NCBI GenBank assembly: GCA_024244665.1
Contig: JAAEOI010000248.1
Coordinates: 1-5,125 of the forward strand
DNA length: 5,125 nucleotides
Direction: 5' to 3'
From: Bacteroidota bacterium
Lineage (GTDB): Bacteria; Bacteroidota; Bacteroidia; Bacteroidales; GCA-2748055
Shown: piece after piece, positions 1 to 5,125 of the stretch
Layout: every line of letters starts with the position of its first letter
Position numbering within the stretch: the first letter of the stretch is position 1
Notes under the pieces: generated by a model
What the model saw: only the letters and a program-made list of their open reading frames with translations
The model's database searches: none
Told to the model about the DNA's origin: nothing
Made by a program: the position numbers and the translations under genes

Positions 1-185
1 ATCCCCTCCCCGGCCAGGCGGTCAATATGGGGAGTTTGGATGGGAATGCTCTCATCATAACAGCTCAGCGAATTCAGTCGCTGGTCGTCGGTCAGCATCA
101 CAATGATGTTGGGCGCTTCTGTTGTTTTTGTGCAGGCCGAAATCAACATGCCTGCAATAGCAAATAATGGGATTAGTTTTTTCAT
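1..185 (-). CDS. Sulfatase B, N-terminal part (predicted lipoprotein; runs off the window)
   Basis: This is the start of a type I (formylglycine-dependent) sulfatase, which hydrolyses sulfate esters on glycans. 61 complete codons are visible. The ATG at 185-183 is followed by a lipoprotein signal peptide (MKKLIPLFAIAGMLISAC) with lipobox I15-S16-A17-C18, so the protein is probably anchored to a membrane through Cys18. The mature part opens with PNIIVMLTDDQR (residues 25-36), the first beta strand of the alkaline-phosphatase-like fold; D33 and D34 are the usual calcium ligands. It continues with TPHIDRLAGEG (51-61), another typical sulfatase segment. The CxPSR-type active-site motif lies beyond the window, so activity cannot be judged. 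The gene starts 27 bp after the stop of the preceding chimeric ORF, so co-transcription is likely. I see no Shine-Dalgarno sequence, as is usual in Bacteroidota. The sulfatase family is firm; the substrate is unknown. Confidence 0.88.
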   Translation of the reverse strand, partial: MKKLIPLFAIAGMLISACTKTTEAPNIIVMLTDDQRLNSLSCYDESIPIQTPHIDRLAGEG

Positions 186-212: not shown

Positions 213-341
213 CTACTTTCCCCGGGCCTGTATATAAGGTGGGAAATCAAAAGCATCTGTCAACCTTGGATCATTGGTGTTTTCCAGTACCTGCATTAAC
301 AGTTTTGAAAGTTTTGCCTTCTCTTTAGCATATTTCTTAAA
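213..341 (-). pseudogene. Displaced C-terminal tail of sulfatase A
   Basis: The last 42 codons of the chimeric ORF (including the microhomology at the junction) plus its stop encode a typical type I sulfatase C-terminus: KKY, a lysine-rich amphipathic helix, NTNDPRLTD, then DFPPYIQARGK. Sulfatases commonly have about 19 residues between the aromatic of the GDxxY motif and the DPR motif, and here Y341 and DPR are separated by exactly 19. Truncated sulfatase A ends in AGDKKY, so joining the two at KKY restores frame, spacing and a natural end. A hand count gives 50 G+C of 127 bases (39%) for 213-339, close to sulfatase A (101 of 240, 42%, at 4441-4680) and far from the adjoining GH120-type part (138 of 240, 57.5%, at 361-600). 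Lysine-rich tails are AT-rich by nature, so composition is only supporting evidence. An alternative is the tail of a third, otherwise deleted sulfatase. Confidence 0.72.
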
Positions 342-1352
342 ATCAGCCCAGATGATGGTCGAATCCCCTTCCACCTCGGCAAACCAGTAAGAGGGCTGCG
401 GTCCCGCCGTCTTTTTTTCTCTGGGCCTGGACCTGAAAACAAGCGTGATGTCCTGACTCCCGGACAAGGGTCTGGCCAGGTTTGCATGGAAGGGCTGAAA
501 GCTGGTCCACTCCGTGGTAAATCCCACATCAAATGTCCCCAGAAGCTCCCCGTCGGCATCTCCCATATGGATATCCACCAGGCCCCCTTCAACAGGAGAG
601 GCAGCCTGGATGAACATGTACATTGATTCTTCCCCGAAGTCTATCGAATAACTCAGAGTAGCTCCATCCTGCAGTCTTCCCACACAGCTGAGCCCATCCC
701 TAAGGTTCATGGTTTCCAATCCCTTGCTTGCCCTCAGAAAACCGGAAGCCTTACGGCTGCTGCCACTTTTGTCTCCCGGTGTTATCTCCCTCAGGTTCAT
801 CAGCTCGGAAATATCGTCCACTGCTTCCCCGTCAGACTCAGATTTCAACACCAGGTCCTTTCTTGCGGCTTCCTTCAGCCAATGCCCGTTCAGGTAAACA
901 GCGCCCGTATGGTAGGGACCCTTTGCACTGTACCAATTGCCTTGCAGCAGATCACTGTATGGATTGAAATTCCCAAAGAAGGTGTTGGGCAATTTCAATT
1001 CCCAGGTATCTTGCTCCACCTTTTTCCAGCCCCTGACCTGCTCAGAGCCCTTTATGACGACTGTCTCACCAGAAGCCGCCATATAAACAATCCGCATGTC
1101 TTCCGAGCTTCCTCCCCGGGGCGGGTTGATCCATTCCCGGTATACGCCCTCATGCACCATAATGGTATCTCCGGGAAGCGCTTTTTGAGCGGCTGCGGAT
1201 ATGGACCGATAAGCTTTTGCCCCGTAGGAATCTTCTCCCGATACAGCAACGTGGTGGGTATGCTGTGCATTTAATCCTGTCAGGCTTAAAGTGCCCAGAA
1301 AAATGCAGCTTATGATCGTAATGGTTTTACTCTTACAATAATGCATCAGCAT
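213..1352 (-). CDS. Chimeric ORF: secreted GH120-type beta-helix N-terminus with CBM6-like module, fused to a sulfatase C-terminal tail
   Basis: The 379-residue product begins with a signal peptide (about 1-29, cleavage after LNA). Residues 34-140 look like the start of a right-handed beta-helix glycosidase of the GH120 (XylC beta-xylosidase) type: PGDTIMVHEGVYREW (60-74), VVIKGSEQVRGW (98-109) and PNTFFGNFNPY (122-132). Residues about 185-308 resemble a CBM6-type carbohydrate-binding module. The GH120-like part resumes at SYWFAEVEGDSTIIWADF (321-338), where family members normally continue with YANFxGADPNxE and the long helix. Here residues 339-379 instead read as a sulfatase C-terminus (KAKLSKLLMQVLENTNDPRL, then a short aromatic end). 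GH120 catalytic residues lie much later in the helix, so this product should lack them. It starts 13 bp after the fucosidase stop, so the two were probably co-transcribed. Calling it GH120 rather than another beta-helix family rests on remembered motifs. It could be an expressed binding protein or a dead fragment. Confidence 0.8.
   Translation of the reverse strand: MLMHYCKSKTITIISCIFLGTLSLTGLNAQHTHHVAVSGEDSYGAKAYRSISAAAQKALPGDTIMVHEGVYREWINPPRGGSSEDMRIVYMAASGETVVIKGSEQVRGWKKVEQDTWELKLPNTFFGNFNPYSDLLQGNWYSAKGPYHTGAVYLNGHWLKEAARKDLVLKSESDGEAVDDISELMNLREITPGDKSGSSRKASGFLRASKGLETMNLRDGLSCVGRLQDGATLSYSIDFGEESMYMFIQAASPVEGGLVDIHMGDADGELLGTFDVGFTTEWTSFQPFHANLARPLSGSQDITLVFRSRPREKKTAGPQPSYWFAEVEGDSTIIWADFKKYAKEKAKLSKLLMQVLENTNDPRLTDAFDFPPYIQARGK
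331..339. repeat. Direct repeat, low-coordinate copy (candidate target-site duplication)
   Basis: TATTTCTTA here is identical to 4384-4392. The first five bases (TATTT) are the likely duplicated target. The next four (CTTA) can be read as the element end at this side and as host sequence at the other. It lies exactly where the GH120-type protein turns into the sulfatase tail. Five base pairs fits IS1380-family elements such as ISEcp1. Plain microhomology is the alternative. Confidence 0.5.
336..345 (+). repeat. Candidate surrogate right end (IRR2-like) inside the GH120-type gene
   Basis: CTTAAAATCA, reading towards higher coordinates, matches the first bases of the IS end at 4383 (CTTAAAAATC on the minus strand) if one A is skipped. 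It directly follows the TATTT repeat. Similarity stops after about nine bases, as would be expected of a fortuitous end used in one-ended transposition. The site is AT-rich, so chance similarity is possible. Confidence 0.35.
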
Positions 1353-1365
1353 GTTTTACCTTTGC

Positions 1366-2730
1366 TCAGTATTCTGTTTCAAGAACAATAATCGAGTCGA
1401 TCTCATCTCTATTCTCCGTCGGCAGATCGATTTTCATACCCTTGCGGCTCTGCCTCACTCTGACCTTCTCAACATTCAGCCCGCAGTAGCTGGTGATCTT
1501 TCTATCCAGGGGCGGAAGCAAAAGAGAGGTCCCGTCTTCCGGCCATTCCAGCACATGTACATAAACCTTATTGCCTTTAAAAGTCATACCTCCCCAGCTC
1601 CCGTTGGGAATTGGCCCACCACGAGTTCCATATATGCTTTCACCATTCTTATCCAGCCATTTACCTATATCTTTAAGTAGGGATATCTGTTCAGGGGGGA
1701 ATTCTCCTGATGGCATGGGGCCCACATTTAAAAGCAAATTCCCATCTCCCGTAACAGTCTGAACCAGGTTACGAATGGTCTGCTTAAATGAAAAAGTCTT
1801 ACAATCGGGCCGGAAGGACCATCCACCACCACCGGTTGTTTCCACATCACAATGGTTCATGGTCATACAGGATTCCCAGGCCCTGTCAGTCTGGAATTGA
1901 CCTATATATTGTTCCGGTGTATCGAAGTCGCCCAGCACCATTTTTTTCATTTCCGGATCGGCTGGCTCATATTTCTTCCCTTCTTCCCTGGTAATAAACC
2001 TGGCTGCCCGGTTATTGACAAGAAGGTCCTTCCCCTGCAGTTCATACATCATGGCAAAAAGATTAGGGATCGTATAGTCGTCCCAGCTTCCCGCCGTATG
2101 ATCGAACCACATGATATCCACCACTCCATAATTGGTCAGCAGTTCCCGCACCTGTTCCTGGTAGAATTCATTGTATTTCCTGTTATCACCCACGTGATAA
2201 TCCGGATGGGACCAGTCGCGGGTGGAATAGTACCACCCCAGTTTCAGCCCGTGCTTGTGGGCCGCATCGGCTAGTTCTTTGCAAATGTCGCGTTTAAAGG
2301 GGGTGTTGGCAATATTGTAATCGCGCAGTTTCGTGTGAAACATGGAAAAACCATCATGATGTTTTGAGGTAAATACCACATATTTAAAACCCGCCTCCTT
2401 TGCAAGCCGCATCCAGTCATCTGCATTGAATTTCACCGGATTAAAGCTATTGTAAAGCTGGTCGTAGCATTCATCGGGCAATAATCTCAGAGATCCCTGA
2501 AGATCGAAAGGGTGACTCTCTCTTGCCCAGCCGATCTCCACCCCTGCAACGCTGGACGGCCCCCAGTGAATGAACAGTCCCAGGCCGGCATTTCTGAACC
2601 ATTCCAGTTTAGGATCGTCGTCATAAACAGGCCGGATCTCATTATCAGGCCTTGCAGGCTGTGCATCGATAAAGTTCACCTGCATGAAGAAGAAAATAAC
2701 AGGGATCAACAATTTTTTCATGGATTTCAT
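1366..2730 (-). CDS. Secreted alpha-L-fucosidase, glycoside hydrolase family 29
   Basis: A complete GH29 enzyme of 454 residues, normal for the family, which releases L-fucose from glycans with retention of configuration. The signal peptide spans about 1-23 (MKSMKKLLIP..., ending IDA before Q24), so the enzyme should act in the periplasm or outside the cell. The (beta/alpha)8 catalytic domain covers about 35-365. Visible hallmarks are WFRNAGLGLFIHWGPSS (44-60), SKHHDGFSMF (122-131), WYYSTRDW (166-173), VDIMWFDH (204-211) with D210 as the expected nucleophile, GDFDTPEQY (267-275), and LLLNVGPMPSGEFP (332-345). The acid/base glutamate varies in this family; E273 and E286 are candidates. The C-terminal 80 or so residues should form the usual beta-sandwich. 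ATG at 2730 is taken as the start; the in-frame ATG at codon 4 would also leave a good signal peptide. No Shine-Dalgarno is visible. The gene lies between the IS and the chimeric ORF and looks intact. Confidence 0.95.
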   Translation of the reverse strand: MKSMKKLLIPVIFFFMQVNFIDAQPARPDNEIRPVYDDDPKLEWFRNAGLGLFIHWGPSSVAGVEIGWARESHPFDLQGSLRLLPDECYDQLYNSFNPVKFNADDWMRLAKEAGFKYVVFTSKHHDGFSMFHTKLRDYNIANTPFKRDICKELADAAHKHGLKLGWYYSTRDWSHPDYHVGDNRKYNEFYQEQVRELLTNYGVVDIMWFDHTAGSWDDYTIPNLFAMMYELQGKDLLVNNRAARFITREEGKKYEPADPEMKKMVLGDFDTPEQYIGQFQTDRAWESCMTMNHCDVETTGGGGWSFRPDCKTFSFKQTIRNLVQTVTGDGNLLLNVGPMPSGEFPPEQISLLKDIGKWLDKNGESIYGTRGGPIPNGSWGGMTFKGNKVYVHVLEWPEDGTSLLLPPLDRKITSYCGLNVEKVRVRQSRKGMKIDLPTENRDEIDSIIVLETEY

Positions 2731-2746
2731 CAGCTTTTTTTTTGAA

Positions 2747-2760
2747 CTTAAATATCCAAA
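2747..2760 (+). repeat. Candidate IS terminal inverted repeat, transposase-distal end
   Basis: CTTAAATATCCAAA matches the reverse complement of 4370-4383 at 12 of 14 positions, and similarity fades beyond that. It lies 16 bp upstream of the fucosidase start codon at 2730, so the fucosidase leader would be at the very edge of the IS. Any promoter for that gene would then have to lie largely inside the element. Confidence 0.45.
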
Positions 2761-2867
2761 TTGAATTTTTTAAACGGGGATTAACCCGGCATATGAACAA
2801 AGGTCATTCAATTGCGGCCAATTTGGTTTAACTCCCCAGCTTGAATGATCTTTATGCCCCTGCTCAT

Positions 2868-2883
2868 TGGGGAATATTCCCCA
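2868..2883. repeat. 16-bp perfect palindrome
   Basis: TGGGGAATATTCCCCA equals its own reverse complement. It could be a protein-binding site or part of a hairpin in the IS 3' region. Nearby CCCC at 2857-2860 and 2834-2837 allow alternative pairings. Function unknown. Confidence 0.6.
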
Positions 2884-2902
2884 CTTTTCCCTGTTTTTTG
2901 AG

Positions 2903-2947
2903 CTAATGGAAGGTACCTCTCCCATACACTCTCGTGTCGGTTCTCAT
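2903..2947 (-). CDS. Possible 14-codon ORF with strong Shine-Dalgarno (function unknown)
   Basis: ATG at 2947-2945 opens MRTDTRVYGRGTFH and then TAG. It is preceded by AAAGGAGG with GGAGG at 2957-2953, five bases before the ATG. Such a strong ribosome site is notable because the other starts in the window have none, in keeping with Bacteroidota. The ORF begins 21 bp after the transposase stop. It is too short to identify and contains the ACAC-GAGA-GTGT hairpin in its coding strand, so the stretch may be structural RNA or a fragment of another element rather than a gene. Confidence 0.2.
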   Translation of the reverse strand: MRTDTRVYGRGTFH

Positions 2948-2968
2948 ATTTTCCTCCTTTCTATGTTA

Positions 2969-4285
2969 CTACGCCGCTTCGATGAGCCTGTCAAGCTCTT
3001 CCCAAGCGTCTTTATAAAAATGGTGTTCATACATTTTCAACTCAATTTGATGCCCGCTTCTGGTTATCTTTGCGGGCACTGAAATAAACCAATCGATAAA
3101 GCTCCGGTGTTCTTGCTTTTTGTACTTGTCTTTCTTCTGACGCATCATCACCGATATGTTGTATGCAAATACGCTTAATTGCCATAGTATGTCATTTGCC
3201 CAGAAGTCATCGGTCAGCGTGTTGCCTGCCATCGTGTGCCCTTTTACCTGCTCAATCCATGTCTCGCTGGTAGAACGCTGCTTGTACAACTCATGCAACT
3301 CAATGGCATCCACATCATAACTGCTGACATAGCATACATACTGATAAACCGGCACTATTTTCATCTCCCCCAGATAGGATACTTCAACATATTCCTTAAC
3401 TGACCGCATTGCTTTCAGTGTTCTGGAACGTTGCCAGGATTTTGCCTGGAAACTGAACTCACATATGGCAACATCTGTGGCATCTTTAACATCAGTCCAA
3501 TTCTGTGACTGTAATAATTTCTCAAGGTTTTTGAGTTTCACTTTGACCAGATAATCCCAGGAATAAGACTCCAGCAAGTCAAATAGATTCCCTGAGAAGA
3601 ACCCACTATCTGCCCTGAAGAACACTTTCCTGACATTCCTGGGAAGACTGGATTGTACTTCCTTTAAGAACTCAATAACACCATTGGCTGTATACGCTGA
3701 TCCCGTCCTGAACCAGGTGTGGTAAAGCAGCTTCATCTCGCTTACGAAAACCAGCAGTGGGTGATAGCTTCTGGCTCCTTTCTTAGTAGTGTTAAATCCT
3801 TTCTCTGCACCTTCCTGGTTACCACAAACAGATTTGACGGTGGAATCAGCATCCAGTGTAATGCTTGCCAATCCGCTTTCACGCAACCACCGCGCATTTT
3901 TCGACAACAATAACATTTGTAGTTTGCGTGCACCGCTTTGTCCCAAGTTCTTCAACGTTGCGGATATGGCGTTCTCATTTATTGCCTTATCCAGCTTCAG
4001 CAATGCTTTGACCAATCCGTCCCCACTAAAGACAGCGATCCTGTAAATCCGGTTTATCCCGCTGATTGAAGCCAGGGTAATGGCCATCAATACCTGGTTG
4101 ACACCAAACTTGGTGGCATTGTGCCACACGGTGGGAAAGGAGGTGCCAATGGATTTCACTATGTGCTGGCGATTCATATATTTTGCCACGGTATTAAGAC
4201 CGGAATATTTTGTGATGTTACTGCCTGTAAATGAGCACTTAACAATTTTAGATTGGTTCTTTAACTTTTCCTTCGTATTTTTCAT
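2969..4285 (-). CDS. IS1380-family transposase (DDE)
   Basis: A 438-residue DDE transposase that should cut and join the ends of its own IS. IS1380-type landmarks occur in order: LDADSTV (144-150), followed by GNQEGAEKGFNTTKKG (155-170) and SYHPLLVF (173-180); then FFRADSGFF (222-230) with D226; then the Y(2)R(3)E(6)K signature as Y334, R337, E341, K348; then FWANDILWQLSVFAYNI (361-377). D145 or D147, D226 and E341 are the probable catalytic triad. Length and motifs look complete and there is no frameshift, so the enzyme may be active. The ATG at 4285-4283 is the first in frame and has no Shine-Dalgarno. Hand-counted G+C is about 44% at 3541-3660, below the fucosidase (50% at 1801-2040) and the GH120-type gene. 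The coding direction matches all other genes, so transcripts could run on into the fucosidase. Confidence 0.92.
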   Translation of the reverse strand: MKNTKEKLKNQSKIVKCSFTGSNITKYSGLNTVAKYMNRQHIVKSIGTSFPTVWHNATKFGVNQVLMAITLASISGINRIYRIAVFSGDGLVKALLKLDKAINENAISATLKNLGQSGARKLQMLLLSKNARWLRESGLASITLDADSTVKSVCGNQEGAEKGFNTTKKGARSYHPLLVFVSEMKLLYHTWFRTGSAYTANGVIEFLKEVQSSLPRNVRKVFFRADSGFFSGNLFDLLESYSWDYLVKVKLKNLEKLLQSQNWTDVKDATDVAICEFSFQAKSWQRSRTLKAMRSVKEYVEVSYLGEMKIVPVYQYVCYVSSYDVDAIELHELYKQRSTSETWIEQVKGHTMAGNTLTDDFWANDILWQLSVFAYNISVMMRQKKDKYKKQEHRSFIDWFISVPAKITRSGHQIELKMYEHHFYKDAWEELDRLIEAA

Positions 4286-4289
4286 CTAG

Positions 4290-4357
4290 AAAGTGATGTT
4301 TTTTTGCTAGTATTTATTGCTTCAACACTTTGAATATAAGCAAAATACATCACTTTT
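4290..4357. repeat. Subterminal inverted repeat spanning the transposase leader
   Basis: The arm AAAGTGATGTTTTTTTGC at 4290-4307 pairs with GCAAAATACATCACTTT at 4340-4356, leaving one bulge and one mismatch around a 32-base loop. It lies between the IS end and the transposase start, ending five bases before the ATG at 4285. In RNA coming from sulfatase A it would fold into a long hairpin hiding the transposase start, a known way for insertion sequences to prevent activation by outside transcription. It could also be a transposase-binding site. Confidence 0.6.
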
Positions 4358-4369
4358 TATAGTTTTTAT

Positions 4370-4383
4370 TTTAGATTTTTAAG
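4370..4383 (-). repeat. IS terminal inverted repeat, transposase-proximal end
   Basis: Read inward on the minus strand this is CTTAAAAATCTAAA. Its outer edge coincides with the point where sulfatase A stops resembling its family. It encodes the three foreign residues (LKI) and supplies the TAA stop at 4373-4371 that now ends sulfatase A. Confidence 0.5.
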
Positions 4384-5125
4384 TATTTCTTATCGCCAGC
4401 CACGTTATTTAGCTGGTCAGGGTCCAGGCGTAAATCATACAGCTCCTCTTTGGGCCGTTTGCCAAAACCCATTTCGTAATATTTTTTATATTCGGGTGTA
4501 TTCATGTTTGTTACAAACCATGCTTTTGTGGGGCCATTATCTATGCCCCTTAATATTAATGCACTCCGCTGGTTGGCATAATCCTCGTTGAACTCATAGC
4601 TTAGCTGGGATTCCAATGAAAACTCCTTCCTAAATCCGGGTGGTACTAACTCGGGTTCAAAAGTGTTTTCATCAACACCAATGGGCACCCTGTCTGGTTT
4701 GAAATTAAGAATATAGATAAAGTCTTTGGTATGGATTGCCCTGGACGGATAGGGTAAGCCACCTTTTCTGTATCCATGACGTTCCCTTCCAACGACAACA
4801 TGGTCACGTTTTTTATGGATTAATCCCTCTTTTTTCGACATTAACAAAGGGATCAGGCTTTTTCCATCCATGGTTTCGGGTATTTCAATACCAGCTGCTT
4901 CAAGGAAGGTAGGAGCCAAATCGATCAGGTTTACAAAATCATCCAGCTTTCTACCTGTATATTTGATATCTCCCCATCTGATGATCAGTGGAGCACGTAC
5001 ACCGAAATCATAGAGATTGGCTTTCCCGTGCGGAAAACCGGGGATGCCATTGTCGCCCGACAAAACAATAATCGTATTCTCATATTCTCCCAGGCGTTTT
5101 AACTCTTCCACCAGATATTCTTGCC
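4371..5125 (-). CDS. Sulfatase A, C-terminal part, truncated by the insertion (5' end beyond window)
   Basis: 250 codons of a type I sulfatase enter from the window edge; the start codon and CxPSR active-site motif lie outside. The GTG at 5111 is not a start: the frame continues upstream (QEYL), and YLVEELKRLGEYENT is normal family sequence. IIVLSGDNGIPGFPHG (18-33 of the visible part) holds metal ligands D24 and N25. K34 in KANLYDFGVRAPLIIRWG is the usual active-site lysine. MDGKSLIPLL and ELYDLRLDPDQLNN are further hallmarks. The protein then stops at AGDKKY plus LKI, about 38 residues short; the missing end appears at 213-341. The catalytic domain should be complete, but loss of the C-terminal helix may affect folding. 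Hand-counted G+C is about 42% at 4441-4680. The substrate cannot be told; the neighbouring fucosidase arrived with the IS and need not reflect it. Confidence 0.88.
   Translation of the reverse strand, partial: QEYLVEELKRLGEYENTIIVLSGDNGIPGFPHGKANLYDFGVRAPLIIRWGDIKYTGRKLDDFVNLIDLAPTFLEAAGIEIPETMDGKSLIPLLMSKKEGLIHKKRDHVVVGRERHGYRKGGLPYPSRAIHTKDFIYILNFKPDRVPIGVDENTFEPELVPPGFRKEFSLESQLSYEFNEDYANQRSALILRGIDNGPTKAWFVTNMNTPEYKKYYEMGFGKRPKEELYDLRLDPDQLNNVAGDKKYLKI
4384..4392. repeat. Direct repeat, high-coordinate copy (candidate target-site duplication)
   Basis: TATTTCTTA is identical to 331-339. On the minus strand it encodes the KKY of truncated sulfatase A. TATTT (4384-4388) is the likely five-base duplicated target. 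If one copy and everything between the copies is removed, GAT AAG AAA TAT GCT AAA reads through in frame. Confidence 0.5.

Follow-up and report, generated by a model that had tools for sequence, protein, structure and literature searches.

The closest described systems to the locus studied here are ISEcp1 and ISPme1, two insertion sequences (IS) of the IS1380 family (accessible part of PMC9330008). ISEcp1 undergoes one-ended transposition, in which a true left end is used together with a degenerate right end, 5-bp duplications are formed and downstream genes are gained or lost (PMC12589106, in its accessible part). Misrecognition of a downstream sequence that resembles the inverted repeat (IR) gives rise to 'transposable modules' (TMos; PMC9330008), which are usually unrecognisable in sequence unless they lie in a conserved context such as the cassette of a trap plasmid (PMC3281130), as the available portions of these papers describe. 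We analysed the 5,125-bp contig JAAEOI010000248.1 (assembly GCA_024244665.1; this whole stretch is hereafter called the window), in which a sulfatase gene appears to be split by a 4,048-bp insert (4383-336) composed, in minus-strand order, of an IS1380-family element, a GH29 gene and the first half of a GH120-CBM6 gene (Table 1). The insert was read as one transposition unit because the sulfatase supplies the conserved context needed to recognise such modules, and it very probably represents a single transposition of an ISEcp1-like transposition unit, or transposable module.

The window resembles the ISEcp1 units of Enterobacterales, which carry blaCTX-M and other genes, in that one IS of the IS1380 family would mobilise the genes downstream of it. 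In ISEcp1-blaCTX-M, the cargo lies just past the native right end and is co-oriented with the transposase, as in the window. An imperfect right end and a 5-bp duplication are further points of likeness (PMC12589106, accessible part), and the window transposase matches ISEcp1-type transposases over 95%. That match is only ~26% identical, however, and unlike the ISEcp1 units the window probably derives from a Bacteroidota host, its cargo serves glycan degradation rather than resistance, and a promoter role is only putative here. The ISPme1 TMos of Paracoccus are likewise formed by a single IS1380-family IS that moves variable 3'-adjacent DNA via misrecognised ends (accessible parts of PMC9330008 and PMC3281130), but the unit in the window was recognised through its conserved sulfatase target gene instead. 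Composite transposons also move cargo through IS activity; the window differs from them in having one IS copy and a right end that is not that of an IS. A composite transposon was considered for this locus and rejected, as there is no second IS copy, and neither an IS end nor a transposase is found at 336, where native GH120 coding sequence lies. The anatomy of ISEcp1 and ISPme1 has already been published for Proteobacteria, and the present case is probably one from Bacteroidota with glycan-degradation genes. No earlier Bacteroidota case with glycan genes was found in the literature searched, the coverage of which leaves out most subscription journals.

Table 1. Positions of the features discussed in the text, in window coordinates
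Feature	Position	Strand	Remarks
S1-type sulfatase body	4384..5123	-	ends ...NNVAGDKKY; 5' end beyond window; Pfam Sulfatase + SGSH_C, alignments
Target-site duplication, copy 1	4384..4388		TATTT on plus strand, AAATA on minus strand
IS1380-family insertion sequence, 1,637 bp	2747..4383	-	terminal repeats conserved in relatives; duplications abut ends in L001, L087
Transposase, 438 aa, without internal stop	2969..4285	-	NCBIfam NF033539 IS1380 + Pfam DDE_Tnp_1_4
GH29 alpha-L-fucosidase, full length, 454 aa	1366..2730	-	Pfam PF01120 1.7e-77; PDB 6gn6 1.9e-67
GH120 5' part with CBM6	336..1352	-	cut at codon 339 (WADFK); PF21258 + PF03422; homologues read on VDPN...EINVRQ
Putative surrogate right end GATTTTAAG	336..344	-	native GH120 codons D-F-K; like terminal 8-9 bp of the native right inverted repeat
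Target-site duplication, copy 2	331..335		TATTT on plus strand
Sulfatase C-terminal tail	213..335	-	KY-AKEKAKLSKLLMQVLENTNDPRLTDAFDFPPYIQARGK-stop; in-frame fusion to GH120 fragment
Second sulfatase, start only	3..185	-	27 bp downstream of tail stop, same strand

A sequence-only reading of the window had proposed that one sulfatase gene is split by an insert with carbohydrate genes inside, and our results bear this out. On the minus strand, the window holds the sulfatase body (5123-4384), the transposase (4285-2969), GH29 (2730-1366), an open reading frame (ORF) combining GH120 and sulfatase sequence (1352-213) and the second sulfatase (185-3). As that reading had described, the frame of the body enters the IS end and finishes ...AGDKKY-LKI-stop at 4371, and the ORF ending at 213 changes from GH120/CBM6 sequence to KKY-AKEKAKL...DPRL. 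Deletion of 331-4383 in silico, equivalent to the deletion of 336-4388 that had been suggested, restored the frame and gave a joined sulfatase of 285 residues with the joint at residues 245-247. With the joined protein as query (140 genomes, at most 17 candidates scored per genome), matches with E<=1e-50 were obtained at 10 places in 9 genomes, and all 10 continued past the joint to at least residue 272. These 10 strong homologues therefore do not end near KKY, a possibility that the sequence-only reading had raised against itself. In a residue-by-residue alignment of five strong relatives the joint was free of gaps in each, and the single printed alignment to the body's nearest solved chains, which are S1_8 sulfatases, spans both sides of it.

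The register across the joint was also preserved in a wider set. Of 24 fetched sulfatases, 20 have the tail exactly two residues (K-Y) after the body, the 10 strong relatives among them, so the ancestral sulfatase carried a single KKY. The exceptions were L028, whose body aligned to residue 243 with the best tail match off register, and L034, L036 and L037, in which the body aligned only to residues 91-97. The 24 relatives fell in a similar order by body score and by tail score (Spearman 0.84); the highest score for the tail was 85, compared with a maximum of 49 among 200 shuffles. Because these sulfatases had been fetched via the joined query, which biases the set toward agreement between body and tail, the tail was also searched alone. 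At E<=0.01 this gave 3 places in the 140 genomes, each of them the C-terminus of a sulfatase already matched by the joined query (L058, L065 and L059). Body and tail thus group with the same sulfatases rather than with different subfamilies, which answers another of the objections that had been foreseen. At the level of sequence comparison, 5123-4384 and 335-213 are confirmed as the body and the tail of one sulfatase gene. Loss of the last 38 residues after KKY probably impairs the enzyme. The second sulfatase fragment matched Pfam Sulfatase (0.0068) and the NCBIfam arylsulfatase model PRK13759.1 (5e-06), both below cut-off.

The sequence-only reading had named the sulfatase and the carbohydrate parts but no transposase. 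A mechanism can now be added with support from the window: a complete IS1380-family element opens the insert, and a 5-bp duplication flanks the insert as a whole. The transposase scores 216.8 bits against NF033539, for which the cut-off is 180. The left inverted repeat (IRL) starts at 4383 (CTTAAAAATCTAAAATAAAAA) and the native right inverted repeat (IRR) ends at 2747 (TTCAATTTGGATATTTAAG); across relatives, the terminal repeats read CTTAAAAAT(C/G)TAAAATAAAAA and variants at the left end and TTCAATTT(G/A)GAT(A/T)TTTAAG and variants at the right end. The IS taken alone lacks a target duplication, with AAATA on its left and TTCAA on its right, whereas the whole insert has AAATA at both outer sides on the minus strand. 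The repeat common to the two junctions is 9 bp long (TATTTCTTA); we read it as the 5-bp target duplication and a CTTA element end, which happens to equal the native sulfatase bases. Past the native IRR lie 2,411 bp of non-IS DNA, with a single IS copy in the window. This cargo opens with the GH29 gene, whose ATG is 16 bp past the IRR and whose nearest other protein is 80% identical.

The outer end of the cargo lies inside a GH120 gene that is native at this point, because homologues continue past the breakpoint. In a 10-row alignment, GH120-CBM6 homologues match the window to F338 in all 10 rows and to K339 in 9; beyond the breakpoint they read (V/T/K/E)(D/N)PN...E(I/V)NVR, where the window has sulfatase sequence instead. 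The GH120 of L038, an 805-aa open frame, also reads on, with a scored match to residue 347, 8 past the breakpoint, in which identities are scattered. GH120 relatives were found at 49 places in 40 of the 140 genomes; 47 of these matches stop at residue 182 or earlier, short of CBM6, and the two that bear on the breakpoint are both from G026, one of them stopping at 309. When P0016 was aligned to the GH120 xylosidase 3vst, the stretches WLDW and VFVEVSHG fell well beyond the breakpoint. We take these stretches to hold the catalytic pair of GH120, Asp382 and Glu405. The fragment should be inactive, as predicted from the position of these stretches past the breakpoint; the catalytic residues of GH120 are described as an Asp and a Glu in the accessible part of PMC6887791. 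The in-frame GH120-sulfatase fusion is a by-product that is in frame by chance.

At the breakpoint, the GH120 codons resemble an IRR end. On the profile of the relatives' IRR, GATTTTAAG ranked 2 of 2,527 over the last 8 bp, a rank shared with one other position. The native right end closes with the six bases TTTAAG, a hexamer present three times among 2,406 cargo positions, in one case precisely at the breakpoint. Imperfect right ends have been reported for ISEcp1 (accessible part of PMC12589106).

The limits of the IS were also compared with those of its relatives. In a loose blastn search, 13 relatives had a match extending to the right end; 7 of these stopped at 2745-2747, and the remaining 6 (L003, L006, L011, L017, L018 and L021) extended 5-60 bp further. 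Among 9 relatives matched as far as the left end, the main piece stopped at 4383-4387 in 7, with L010 and L015 reaching 4410-4411; a second piece of L011 reached 4392. Relatives of the IS include one with 89% identity in the metagenome-assembled genome Bacteroides sp. HyVt-375 and one with 91% over 278 residues in Bacteroidales GMC6. They point to a Bacteroidales host, but weakly, as an IS can pass from one genome to another. In transposase searches at 1e-60, relatives were present in 3 of 140 genomes (family of G017) and in 1 of 7 (family of G001); at 1e-80, 5 of 393 genomes in the order had one, and none of 395 genomes across the phylum did. Perfect 5-bp duplications flank the IS's own ends in L001 (TAATA) and L087 (TGGTG), and judging from these copies the lineage can make a 5-bp target duplication.

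Several further features of the element were observed. An inverted repeat of 18 nt with 89% complementarity lies at 4287-4359, immediately internal to the left end of the IS and upstream of the point where the transposase begins. A GC-rich hairpin of the CCGGG-N4-CCCGG type is found ~28 bp inside the right end (window ~2774-2791, where it is imperfect) and at the same place in many of 23 right ends compared. In L011, IS ends stand in tandem at 6533-6539, a right end being followed by a single 5-bp spacer, TATAA, and then by a left end. Derivatives with internal deletions but with both ends retained, reminiscent of miniature elements, were seen in L107/L121 (a 265-bp element), L010, L015, L017 and L094, and those of L010, L015, L017 and L107 are situated immediately upstream of genes.

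In the proposed mechanism, the IS1380-family element would first have inserted just upstream of the GH29 gene elsewhere, presumably in another locus or genome. Its transposase, presumably the one encoded here, would then have paired the true left end with the degenerate right-end-like GATTTTAAG in the downstream GH120 gene and skipped the real right end. The IS, GH29 and half of GH120 would have entered the sulfatase gene near its 3' end together, as a single unit of 4,048 bp, duplicating 5 bp of the target. A promoter in the IS may drive GH29; in a scan of 18 right ends for Bacteroidetes-type promoters, the mean was 2.33 mismatches, compared with 2.60 in shuffles.

Several observations weigh against a single transposition of this kind. 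The rank of the surrogate end falls with length, to 3 over 9 bp, 20 over 10 and 46 over 12 (of 2,527); over 19 bp it ranked 518 of 2,516 ungapped and 13th when one base was allowed to be missing, and against the IRL profile it ranked 102 of 2,516. Among the 11 IS copies in which both ends could be read by eye (L001, L003, L006, L010, L011, L015, L017, L069, L087, L088 and the short L107/L121 element), the own-end duplication was perfect only in the 2 named above; it kept four of five bases in 2 and fewer in 7. A downstream AAG with the exact left-flank 5-mer was found nowhere within the available loci of L003, L006, L015 and L017, and the search in L010 gave two unconvincing surrogate sites; these five are the copies with imperfect duplications apart from L011, L069, L088 and L107. 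Neither blastn among the IS relatives nor IMG/VR scans for the transposase and GH29 revealed the whole unit a second time, and the scans returned no relative of either protein. The GH120-sulfatase fusion protein is known from the contig of the window alone, though its cluster counts 5 member sequences. Finally, a foreign origin of the cargo is only suggested by GC content at third codon positions (GC3), which is 0.555 in the cargo versus 0.452 in both sulfatase pieces together (p=0.0016). GC3 was rejected as proof of it, since the second sulfatase fragment alone is equally GC-rich (0.574).

Imperfect duplications at the own ends of 9 of the 11 IS copies would also be expected from recombination between copies, and they lend something to an account in two events, in which the IS inserted into the sulfatase alone and GH29 and GH120 arrived through recombination with another IS copy and a deletion ending at the sulfatase. 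Such a history would, however, have to put the GH120/sulfatase joint where exactly 5 bp of target come to be duplicated, adjacent to a sequence resembling the IR, and leave the rest of the sulfatase intact; we consider it improbable. A similarly small chance attaches to an assembly chimera, in which the contig would falsely join two genomes at one or both junctions. The window being the whole contig, and the fusion protein being found on a single contig despite its cluster of 5, are in keeping with a chimera; on the other hand, the junctions have only 9 bp in common, less than the word lengths with which assemblers usually work, one boundary of the insert coincides exactly with the IRL, and the two flanks are parts of a single gene with the register preserved.

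The shortness of the tail, 38 residues after KKY, and its few matches when searched alone (3 of 140 genomes at E<=0.01) could also be accommodated if it were an unrelated C-terminus that merely resembles the end of a sulfatase. We regard this as hardly credible, given that all three of those matches are C-termini of sulfatases that match the body, that the tail scored 85 against a shuffle maximum of 49, and that the two-residue register holds in 20 of 24 relatives. Transposition of one unit by an IS1380-family element is the reading that we favour.

We also surveyed which genes the ends of this IS lineage face. In the 22 genomes with IS relatives, the right-end pattern occurred 17 times in 13 genomes (reversed control, 1) and the left-end pattern 16 times in 10 genomes (control, 2). 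A co-oriented ORF started 10-33 bp after the right end in 10 of the 17 (L093, L096, L098, L099, L101 and L104-L108), a count that leaves aside the 16-bp spacing in the window itself and includes L101, a sulfatase fragment with an arbitrary start. Outward from the left end, an ORF started within 35 bp in 2 of 16, and intergenic positions of loci L001-L022 give 4.6% for comparison. The difference between right and left ends (Fisher p=0.007; 0.017 without L101) suggests that insertion is oriented or that outward expression is selected for, although the p-values are rough, as the loci are partly related and the starts mechanical. Among the genes adjacent to the IRR are GH26 and GH27 genes and genes for sulfatases and WbsX-type proteins. 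Outside the window, Pfam identified 4 of 13 IRR-adjacent genes (the 10 from the survey together with L010, L015 and L017) as clear hydrolases or sulfatases, versus 3 of 18 random genes from the same loci, for which 20 had been drawn and 2 dropped (the transposase and the L016 sulfatase already counted); we therefore claim no enrichment of glycan genes beside the IRR over this glycan-rich background.

It is possible, though doubtful, that this IS1380 lineage and its shortened derivatives act as a device for capturing and expressing polysaccharide-degradation genes in environmental Bacteroidales, sitting right before such genes with the right end oriented to feed them, and moving them by misread ends as ISEcp1 does with resistance genes. 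In Bacteroidota, loci for glycan degradation are often portrayed as mosaics, but one seldom sees both ends of the small-scale engine by which single enzymes move from one such locus to another. The window is unusually clean in this respect, since a single 5-kb stretch preserves the two ends together with the target duplication and the split gene. A single transposition would explain the split sulfatase and the odd GH120-sulfatase fusion, which annotation would enter as real genes. If confirmed, it would extend the ISEcp1 mode of mobilising adjacent genes to a different phylum and a different type of cargo, and the end sequences could be used to search for more such units.

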